DNA from: Paramacrobiotus metropolitanus | Taxonomy: Eukaryota; Tardigrada; Eutardigrada; Parachela; Macrobiotidae | Reading direction: 5' to 3' | Length of the DNA: 64,000 nt | Assembly (NCBI RefSeq): GCF_019649055.1 | Contig: NW_026570223.1 | Location: 3,472,001-3,536,000, forward strand | Shown: positions 115-10,234 of the stretch, piece by piece | How positions within the stretch are numbered: position 1 is the first letter of the stretch | Layout of the letters: every line of letters starts with the position of its first letter | Notes under the pieces: generated by a model | What the model saw: the letters and a program-made list of their open reading frames with translations, nothing else | What the model was told of the DNA's origin: nothing | The model's database searches: none | Translations under genes and position numbers: made by a program

Positions 115-2629
115 CTATCCAATTTCCTCGTTCTCATTCACTGGAATGCATGTTTCTTTTATCTGATATCAGCGCGAGCAGGTAGGAAAAGGTTATGATG
201 TTCTCTTTTTCGCTTTCGGTATACAATTAGTATGAAATGGGTGCCGAACTACTGCAAAATCGTACATATGTGTTTAATAATAATAATAATTATATTATTG
301 TAATTATTCTAGTACAGCAAGTACTACGTACCATATTAATAGTTTGACTTCGTTTGACTATATTATTATAGTAAATTCTCGATTGCGAAATAGTGCAAAT
401 TTGTGACACAAATACAATTGTTTAGCTGTTTACAATCATATCTCTATCAGGGTTGGATTCCGATGAATGGGTCTATCCAGGAGAAAATGGAAAAAAACTG
501 GATCATATAAGCATGAACACAGGGGATGGACACGCAAAAGATCCGGTAGATAAGTTTAGAGAATATGCTGGTTTTGATCGCACTTCTAAAAGTAATTCGG
601 ACAGAGACGCATTGTACGTAACCGTTTTAAGTTAATTAATTATAACAAAATTATTTATGTTTCGCTTCTCTGTTTCCGAACACATAATAACCTATATTAC
701 CGAGTCGCTTTTGTAGTTGTTGACGAAATACATCATCTGCTTCTATAGATCACTGTAAGTATATTAACATAGTAATTTTGTTTGTCTCATGCTAAGTTAA
801 TGTCAACACTAACTACTGACGGTGAAAATGATAACGGAATTGTCAATTATTGCAGACACACGTTGACCATGATCGGTATAGTAGAGCAACCGCAATATCC
901 AGGAGAGTTACTCTTCATGGTGGGGAGTTTATTGGTATCCGTAATGTTGTTTTCCCAAATACTCGGAAACGTATCCAGAACGATTATCAATCAGGATATT
1001 CATGGGATGGAGTTCCGCACCAACATAACCAGTGTTAAGGCGTATATGGAGATGCGCAATGCAAGTTGTTATACCATATCATGCCCTGATATTTTTCTAT
1101 ATATATATGTATAATAAGCAATTCAAAACTATGTCTCACATATTCACACTATCTAATTATATTTAATGTAACTCGTAGTCTTCACTGATCTTTCTGTCTT
1201 GCAGATTGGCGAAGCGTTAAGAAAACGAATAATGTAAGTGCATAATTAACATAACCCTTAATCATGCAAACTACAATAGTTAAGCCGGGTTTTATGGTCG
1301 TCACATAATTCAACAGTTTTTTGTGACTGTACATCTATTATCTCATATTTGCCGTTGTTTTATATCTTAGTGTCATCTATTGTGTTATTTATTGTATTGG
1401 TTATTGATTGTGAGTTTTTGGTCTGCACAATTGCAGAAATCACTTTGAGCACCAATGGGTCACACGTGAAACAGTTGACGAAAGAAAAACTCTGACCTGT
1501 TTGCATGACAAGCTGGAATCGGAACTGTCAATTCAAGTCCACCTGGAAACTATGAAACGAGTACGAATATTCCAAGGCGTCGAACCTGGATTACTAATGG
1601 ATCTCGTTATGAAACTCAAGCTGCAGGTACACTATTGTATTTGCATTCTGCTCACATATCGCAGCTGACAACGACTCCCGCGCTCCCCAAGCTCGCCTTA
1701 TTTATTTACACAAACGGTGACAACCCTCTATCGATCTCCGCTAAGTCCGCTTTCCATTTTCTAACAGCTTATATATGCTTGGTGCAGCTTTGCAACACGA
1801 ATGACAGAGAATCCTCGATTCATGATTAACTGAAATCGGCTGAAAATATGTATAAATGCGAACCCAGAGTTTGATTTGCTTCCCTGCACATACAAAAAAT
1901 ACGAAAAGGTCACCAAAGGCCGGAGTACTAAAAATTATGAACCTTAATGTTACTAGTTTAGTCTTAACTCTTAACTATCGTACCTTATATTATTTTTGTA
2001 CATATGCACTCAATAATCTTGTAATCGTACTTGTCTGATAATATACCTATGTTATCGTACCTGTGACCGATTTTATGTAGGTTTTCCTTCCGGGTGACTA
2101 CGTCTGTCGCAAAGGTGACATTGGTCGGGAATTGTACATCGTCAAGCGCGGTTGTTTGTCGGTAGTGTCCGATGATGGAGAAACGGTTTTCGCCACCATA
2201 GGAGAGGGCTCCGTGTTTGGTGAAATCAGTATCCTGAATATTGCCGGCATCAAATCGGGCAACCGACGGACCGCCAATGTGCGCAGCATTGGCTACTCTG
2301 ATTTGTTCTGTCTTTCAAAAGAAGATTTGTGGGAATCACTGGGAGACTATCCGGAAGGGCAAAAGAAAATGGTAGAACTGGGTAAACAACTGCTGATCAA
2401 GGACAACCTTCTTGACACGGAGGCAGCTGAACAAGCGGAACGCCGGAAAAATGCCTTCTTAAACAAGCTGGATAATGTTGAGGCCAAGATCGAAAACATT
2501 CAGATACGATTTGCTAGTCTGGTAGCGGAACGGGCGGCTGCAGTACAGAAATTAGAAAAACGTCTTGCTAGAATTGATAAAATGATGAGATTGCAAGGGG
2601 TTATACCGGAAGAGGCGGTAGTATGCTAA
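115..2629 (+). CDS. CNGA: Cyclic nucleotide-gated channel, CNGA-type alpha subunit, 3' part
   Basis: Seven in-frame exons can be joined: 115-181, 451-617, 717-754, 856-1060, 1205-1233, 1437-1626 and 2081-2629 (stop), giving 414 residues; S1-S4 lie upstream of the window. In order they encode S5 (LVLIHWNACFFYLIS), the turret (DEWVYPG), pore helix and filter (FYRSLHTLTMIGIVEQP), S6 (VGSLLVSVMLFSQILGN), the C-linker (KRIINHFEHQW, TVDERK, VHLETMKRVRIF), a cyclic-nucleotide-binding domain (GDYVCRKGDIGRELYIVK; FGEISIL; GNRRTANVRS with the cGMP-binding Arg-Thr) and a C-terminal coiled coil (FLNKLDNVEAKIENIQIRF) like the CNGA leucine zipper. Family members are plasma-membrane cation channels opened by cGMP or cAMP in sensory cells. 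The CNBD and zipper argue for CNGA rather than CNGB, but the filter departs from the TIGE of CNGA channels. The fourth intron uses a GC donor. Confidence 0.9.
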
Positions 2630-8873: not shown

Positions 8874-9416
8874 TCAAACCAGATCGCGATCCGGCTCACA
8901 CCATTCCGTCTCACGGCGAATCTTTTCCTCCTCCTCCGGCGTAAAATCGTTCTTGATGCCGAATTCCGCACGGATCTGCTCCGGAGTCTTGTTCTTCAGC
9001 CAGGACGCGATGGTCTTGCAGCAGGCTTCCACCAGACCGCGAATGTTCATGTAGTTGGCACCCATTACCAGCTCGTAAATCTGACCGCGACGCATCTTTC
9101 CCAGCCATTCTTTATCCCAATCAGCCACGTCGTCCAGTTTGCGCAGAATAACGGATTCTTCGTCCTCGGCCAGTTCCGGCTGGTCCTTGTACTGGTTCAG
9201 CCACTCGACGATCTTCTCCAGCACGGCGAACTTCACTTCAGCCAGGGGAATCGCTTCATCGCCGTCTTTAATGGGCTTACTCGGCGTACCATCGGCGTTC
9301 GGCCACTGTCCTAAGTTAATCAACATCTCCTTGATGAGCTTGGAATGTTTGACGGCATTGAGCTCCACTTCGATAGTGTTCTCATCCTTGCTTTCCAGTG
9401 TGACCTTCTGATCCAT
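8874..9416 (-). CDS. skp1: SKP1-like SCF ubiquitin-ligase adaptor, intronless
   Basis: A single ORF of 180 residues from ATG 9416. The reading frame continues upstream without an ATG, so this methionine is taken as the start. SKP1 bridges CUL1 and F-box proteins in SCF ubiquitin ligases. The N-terminal POZ/BTB-like fold (KVTLESKDENTIEVELNAVK) and the C-terminal Skp1 dimerisation region (LMGANY-type ELVMGANYMNIRGLVEACC, KTPEQIRAEFGIKNDFTPEE, WCEPD) are clear. It is longer and more divergent than canonical SKP1 of about 163 residues: the loop after QWPNADGTPSKP is expanded and the tail DRDLV replaces the usual EEK. Every other confidently identified gene here has introns except the CENP-B-like one, so a retrocopied SKP1 paralogue is plausible. 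Multiple SKP1-related genes are known in nematodes and other invertebrates. Confidence 0.88.
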   Translation of the reverse strand: MDQKVTLESKDENTIEVELNAVKHSKLIKEMLINLGQWPNADGTPSKPIKDGDEAIPLAEVKFAVLEKIVEWLNQYKDQPELAEDEESVILRKLDDVADWDKEWLGKMRRGQIYELVMGANYMNIRGLVEACCKTIASWLKNKTPEQIRAEFGIKNDFTPEEEEKIRRETEWCEPDRDLV

Positions 9417-10234
9417 TTTCGAACTTTCACGAATCTGTCTTTTGAGTTTCGACAATCGGATTCGAGAAAACAGGAGCGAGTAAGGCGCAAGGACTGTTTA
9501 ATGCTATATAGTATATACTGTATAACAACTGTGGACAGTAAATGCGTAAAATTAATTCGCGAAAGGTTCACGGATTTAAATTTCTGGATTAAAAGTAAAG
9601 TACTTCGTAAAAAACTCAAAACTGACAAGCGCAACTGTGGCCAGCAAGAACAAGATGTCGGACTTGGTCTGACGAAAATTAGGGCTATATTAGCCTATAT
9701 ATTCCACGAATCAAACGAACTTTTTGGCGCATTGCATCATGGCTGCAAGACTGAAGCGGATCATCACATCCGTCAGATTAGTTATGCCGTCATCTGCGTT
9801 ACTACAGAGTCCAGAGAGACGGCTTGAAGCGAACCCACATCCTGAGAGGCTGAGTCTGGTTGTTGAGGCGCACCTTGGACTCACCGTCAGTATCGATTTT
9901 TTTTCGCACAAAACTTGACAAAAGATTGCAATCACTTGAAAACGAAAGATTTTGATAAGGTGTTTGTACTATTTGATGATATTGATCACGTAATGAGCAA
10001 TAATTAATCCCAACATTTTGCAACATATGCATTTTCTTCGTCATTACGCCATCTTTCTCGATATTAATAGCGTAAGCCTTAGCAAAATTCCATTCGTATC
10101 TCCCTTTTGCAAACGACACACTGAACCAAACTTTGGTGTCTATAGATCATTTGATAGCGCTGCGATCATAGATTTGCAGAAACGGGTTGGTTTTTCTAAA
10201 CTATTTGAGACTTGAGAGAAAATTTTAAAAAAGC
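9417..10234. other. SKP1 upstream region, mostly noncoding
   Basis: Probable promoter side of the SKP1-like gene. At 9740-9900 a GC-richer stretch is open on both strands: on plus it begins MAARLKRIITSVRLVMPSSA, which resembles a mitochondrial leader, and on minus it contains a GTGAGT donor. No homologue was recognised on either strand, so it is left unassigned. Confidence 0.35.

Follow-up and report, generated by a model that had tools for sequence, protein, structure and literature searches.

The window, a stretch of 64,000 nucleotides of a tardigrade genome (G000:C3:3472001-3536000), carries most of a complete gene for a cyclic nucleotide-gated (CNG) channel subunit which, judged by alignment, is CNGA-type by lineage and a variant by its selectivity filter, where MIGI is found opposite the TIGE of CNGA channels. 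It belongs to a clade of four paralogues without the filter acid, and on balance we lean towards regarding it as a functional CNGA-lineage subunit turned modulatory, in the manner of CNGB or CNGA4. The whole-genome searches described below covered 169.8 Mb in 533 contigs.

Gene structure and domain content

The computed gene model consists of nine coding exons, two of the nine lying upstream of the window, and has 613 codons in a stop-free frame ending at a stop codon (Table 1). A single protein combines the Pfam domains Ion_trans (PF00520, 1.3e-23), cNMP_binding (PF00027) and CLZ (PF16526), all above the cut-off. The preliminary description of this DNA had the cytoplasmic domains as CNGA-like and intact, not decayed, which is borne out by these domains together with the stop-free frame.

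Table 1 Features of the window gene. Positions are those of the window unless a contig is given; a slash marks the splice junction.
Feature	Position	Strand	Remarks
Upstream exon	G000:C3 3470470-3470594	+	outside window, from genome sequence
Upstream exon	G000:C3 3471246-3471717	+	outside window, from genome sequence
Exon 3, S5 helix	115..181	+	spliced frame, TTTCAG/CTATCC ... GAGCAG/GTAGGA
Exon 4, S5-pore loop	451..617	+	ends ...DALY, aligned with ...DSLY of paralogue C12a
Exon 5, pore helix start, TKYIICFYRS	717..754	+	TTGTAG/TTGTTG ... ATCACT/GTAAGT
Exon 6, pore helix end, selectivity filter, S6, C-linker start	856..1060	+	TTGCAG/ACACAC ... CGCAAT/GCAAGT
Exon 7, C-linker	1205..1233	+	TTGCAG/ATTGGC ... 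AATAAT/GTAAGT
Exon 8, C-linker	1437..1626	+	spliced frame
Exon 9, CNBD and C-terminal leucine zipper, TAA end	2081..2629	+	Pfam cNMP_binding 3.6e-16, CLZ 3.5e-12
C-terminal leucine zipper (CLZ), residues 529-598	2372..2581	+	Pfam PF16526
Filter codons MIGI, opposite CNGA TIGE	869..880	+	alignment
His codon, pore helix, opposite CNGB1 K841 / CNGB3 R403	857..859	+	alignment; K841/R403 role from PMC10761061
Ser codon at S6 hinge glycine (G388 of CNGA3)	938..940	+	alignment; hinge role from PMC10761061
Arg codon in S6, one residue past CNGB arginine-gate position	977..979	+	alignment; arginine gate from PMC10761061

The exon 4 donor GTAACC at 618 is required for the frame, because GTACGT at 614 brings an in-frame stop. 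The two donors overlap (window 614-620) and only the weaker one keeps the pore in frame, so that use of GTACGT would yield a truncated subunit; regulated splicing is possible at this site. Exon 6 has a GC donor (AAT/GCAAGT), the intron after it being of the GC-AG type. An exon for an immunoglobulin V-set domain (L009 410-620; G000 C3:3462410-3462620) is located on the same strand some 8 kb upstream, and a long ORF on the minus strand of the window (8874-9497) is a candidate Skp1-like gene by eye.

Selectivity filter and pore

Joining 717-754 to 856-1060 (donor ACT/GTAAGT, acceptor TTGCAG/ACACAC) gives, in spliced translation, the product LLTKYIICFYRSLHTLTMIGIVEQPQYPGELLFMVGSLLVSVMLFSQILGNVSRTIIN in a single open frame. 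Its filter codons are T (866-868), M (869-871), I (872-874), G (875-877) and I (878-880), and the alignment of this TMIGI with the TTIGE of CNGA1 and CNGA3 sets Met opposite Thr362 and Ile opposite Glu365, just as the preliminary description had read the filter glutamate and the second threonine. The filter thus differs from those of CNGA (TIGE, or TVGD in CNGA4) and of CNGB (TIGG), being non-acidic but not Gly, as well as from K+-type or HCN filters (GYG/GFG; TVGY/FG or CIGYG), opposite which it reads MIGIV. Two objections had been foreseen, namely a different exon encoding TIGE and an assembly error: a search of the gene for an alternative TIGE or TIGD exon found none, and since the same filter change recurs in paralogues, an assembly error is improbable.

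The change is concentrated in the pore, with S6 altered as strongly as the filter. Identity to human CNGA1 over the pore helix with filter and over S6 is 0.40 and 0.32 (32-40%), versus 0.80 and 0.85 (80-85%) for C2, the canonical gene of the same genome, and the CNBD of the window gene is 0.64 identical. Within the four-gene clade (C3, the window gene, with C12a, C6 and C124), the alignment has His at the K841/R403 pore-helix position in C3 and C6, Met in C12a and Gln in C124; Ser replaces the S6 hinge glycine in three of the four, and an S6 Arg one residue beyond the CNGB arginine gate (R880/R442) is common to all four. The pore-helix Trp is replaced by Arg in the window gene alone among the clade. 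An Arg in the pore helix is likewise present in one CNGB-type gene on C26 (FWRS there, FYRS in the window gene).

For the pore exon, comparison of C3 with C12a gives pS of about 1 (saturated) and pN of 0.24, with 19, 12 and 49 differences at the first, second and third codon positions. By these figures purifying selection acts on this exon among the paralogues, which means constraint and not decay. Neither frame breaks nor relaxed selection, the marks of a pseudogene, were found in the 613 stop-free codons and the constrained pore exon.

Lineage and paralogues

In a PDB search CNGA chains matched the window protein at E of about 1e-138 over 600 residues, which is not a chance similarity. The score was 466 bits for CNGA1 vs 241 bits for CNGB1 (1e-138 for CNGA1/3 vs 1e-70 for CNGB1), and both the bit scores and the tree put the protein closer in sequence to CNGA than to CNGB. 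The four genes C3, C12a, C6 and C124 form one clade with a support of 100, or 98 when the pore columns are removed, so the idea that pore convergence drives the tree was rejected. C2 is sister to this clade with a support of 100 with and without those columns; the tree gives no firm branching order inside the clade. The most parsimonious account is that the filter acid was lost once, in the ancestor of the four genes. The window gene is filed here as a CNGA variant, since it has the CNGA-type lineage but lacks the CNGA filter.

Paralogues were modelled with a spliced protein-to-genome aligner checked against the window gene, all models being computed. Nine CNGA-type genes were counted in the genome. 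Their filters are TTIGE in C2, TNVGD in C18, TMIGI in C3, C12a and C6, TLIGQ in C124, TSKPYEL in C45a, TSILPN in C45b and TSIIPQ in C12b. A zipper is borne by seven of them (C2, C3, C12a, C6, C124, C45a and C45b), and there is no Pfam CLZ match in C12b. Only C2, the canonical CNGA-type gene, keeps TIGE among the seven (1/7), the filter glycine also being gone in two (2/7). A genome-wide CLZ search recovered six of the seven zipper genes above the cut-off, C6 being split by an intron there and passing as a protein, and found no further CNGA genes above the cut-off. The filters of C124, C45a, C45b and C12b each lie inside an unbroken exon; in C12a and C6 they extend across introns, and the C12a model needs the non-consensus donor GTCCGT. 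The earlier reading was right as to the CNGA type, the remodelled filter and the intact domains, and had missed the four-gene clade, the tardigrade expansion and the remodelling of S6.

Several related loci stand apart from this clade. Three CNGA-type genes that have lost the filter glycine (TSKPYEL, TSILPN and TSIIPQ, in unbroken exons) form a second clade with a support of 99-100 (loci L030, L031 and L032; G000 C45:689-706 kb and C12:1525-1533 kb). In C45a, a long open Gly/His/Ala-rich repeat is located just upstream of the pore in the S5-pore region (L018 835-1809; G000 C45, about 695 kb) and could be a long extracellular turret. Three CNGB-type genes with Asn after the filter glycine (TIIGN, TIIGN and TAVGN) are found in one region of C26 (L033 and L034; G000 C26:187-210 kb). 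Two CNBD channels (L036, G000 C93:241-250 kb; L037, C229:20-28 kb) have pores, VVLAQDVDG and VILADEGDN, in which neither a CNG nor a K+ filter can be recognised, but their Ion_trans and CNBD domains are intact. The channel genes of L037 (C229) and L038 (C42) are near-identical, and the pair is probably a haplotype or assembly overlap, since the C42 copy is near the contig end and its model is partly poor.

Comparison with known channels

The window gene shares with CNGA1, CNGA3 and TAX-4 the order of S1-S6, C-linker, CNBD and CLZ, as well as S4, the CNBD motifs FGEIS and NRRTA and the KDNLLD zone; it differs from CNGA1 and CNGA3 in having MIGI, not TIGE, and Ser in place of the hinge Gly. With CNGB1 and CNGB3 it shares a non-acidic filter position, and its potentially charged residue (His) at K841/R403 and its S6 Arg near R880/R442 may be further likenesses; however, it groups with CNGA, its filter residue is Ile and not Gly, the Arg is one residue off, and the CLZ is present, whereas CNGB lacks it. 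Mammalian CNGA4 is likewise a CNGA-lineage subunit with an altered filter and a replaced hinge glycine (Ala in CNGA4, Ser here), and the likeness at issue is that CNGA4 is modulatory only. In contrast to the window gene, CNGA4 has kept an acidic filter (TVGD), and the two differ in origin, the window gene having come from an expansion of its own in which it is sister to the canonical CNGA of the same genome.

Proposed function and alternative explanations

It is reasonable to suggest, slightly more confidently than not, that the tardigrade-lineage expansion of CNGA genes gave rise to a modulatory subunit in which the CNBD, C-linker and trimerising zipper were retained. Because these three are kept, the subunit would be expected to assemble via the zipper with the canonical C2 subunit (TTIGE) and CNGB-type subunits. 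One filter carboxylate (Glu to Ile) and one filter hydroxyl (Thr to Met) would be removed from such a tetramer. The two Ca2+ sites of CNGA1 are shaped by the filter glutamate together with T362; once the glutamate is neutralised, Ca2+ current and block are all but lost and the current rectifies outwardly (PMC10761061). Both sites would presumably be weakened here, with less divalent block and less Ca2+ permeation, and the current would turn more monovalent and more outwardly rectifying. The effect of Ile at this site, as opposed to Ala, Gln or Gly, was not found in the open-licence literature.

This role is supported by the intact gene, the filter change, the clade, the purifying selection and the retained domains. 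Candidate CNGB- or CNGA4-like marks are the His at K841/R403, the replacement of the hinge Gly by Ser and the S6 Arg beside the arginine gate. A modulatory role is preferred to a homomeric or non-conducting one because the CLZ is retained and because the changes in hinge and filter are reminiscent of CNGA4 and CNGB, neither of which forms functional homomers (PMC10761061). Against it, the S6 Arg may point away from the pore, since it is one residue off the gate position, the pore-helix His is missing from two of the four clade genes (C12a and C124), and a zipper is equally a feature of homomeric CNGA channels. The earlier suggestion of convergence on CNGB-like pores is supported in part by the His at K841/R403 and by the Arg beside the arginine gate.

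A possible though less probable explanation is a CNG channel of altered selectivity, homomeric or heteromeric within the clade only, with a ring of Ile or Gln in place of the glutamate ring. The protein is a complete channel with a zipper, TMIGI is identical in three genes, and the pore is conserved among the paralogues, as would be expected if a new pore conducts. However, a set of four isoleucines would make the outer constriction hydrophobic, the hinge glycine of S6 has been lost, and in bovine CNGA1 the substitution of the filter glutamate with Ala resulted in inactivating channels and that with Cys in no current (PMC5758780).

We consider it unlikely that the product is a non-conducting or poison subunit which binds cyclic nucleotide, keeps its assembly and damps or localises canonical channels. 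The hydrophobic filter entrance, the pore-helix Trp to Arg change of the window gene, the changed S6 and a CNBD better kept than the pore would fit such a subunit, but purifying selection on the pore exon would be needless for a dead pore, except for folding.

A decaying gene, an assembly error or a wrong model, with true transcripts using another pore exon, is very improbable: the weak donor next to a stronger-looking one, the GC-AG intron and the Trp to Arg change private to the window gene might suggest it, but the frame is stop-free and the gene offers no other TIGE exon, the same filter recurs in two paralogues that lie on other contigs and have their introns at different positions, and DALY, which precedes the weak donor, is matched in the alignment by DSLY within an unbroken C12a exon. 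One-off decay was rejected, as paralogues carry the same filter change, and with three sister genes changed in the same way an altered channel family, not a broken gene, is indicated.

Implications for tardigrade CNG channels

The expansion of CNG channels in tardigrades is already known: their nine CNGA-type genes were the largest such set in a published survey (PMC9803222), which agrees with the nine counted here, but the terms "selectivity filter" and "pore" are absent from the main text of that study. No earlier account of filter remodelling in tardigrade CNG channels was found in the open-licence literature, though one may exist elsewhere. Among metazoan CNG channels the TIGE filter has been regarded as a clade-level constant (PMC7576140). 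We tentatively raise the possibility, which we hold with limited confidence, that tardigrade CNG pores were rebuilt at least twice, in the TMIGI/TLIGQ clade and in the TSxxP clade without the filter glycine, while the CNGA ligand-gating chassis stayed unchanged and the selectivity became unlike that of any known animal CNG channel. If true, this could mean, for example, Ca2+-impermeable cyclic-nucleotide-gated currents.

The filter glutamate controls Ca2+ entry and block, and TIGE is lost in six of the seven zipper-bearing CNGA genes with the gating machinery under selection. The paralogues make up a natural mutagenesis series in which trade-offs among the filter, pore helix, S6 hinge and arginine gate are testable, and they bear on the question of modulatory subunits arising from the CNGA side. 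The family is also relevant to sensory and desiccation signalling in tardigrades, in which induction of a CNG gene upon drying has been reported (PMC5531438).
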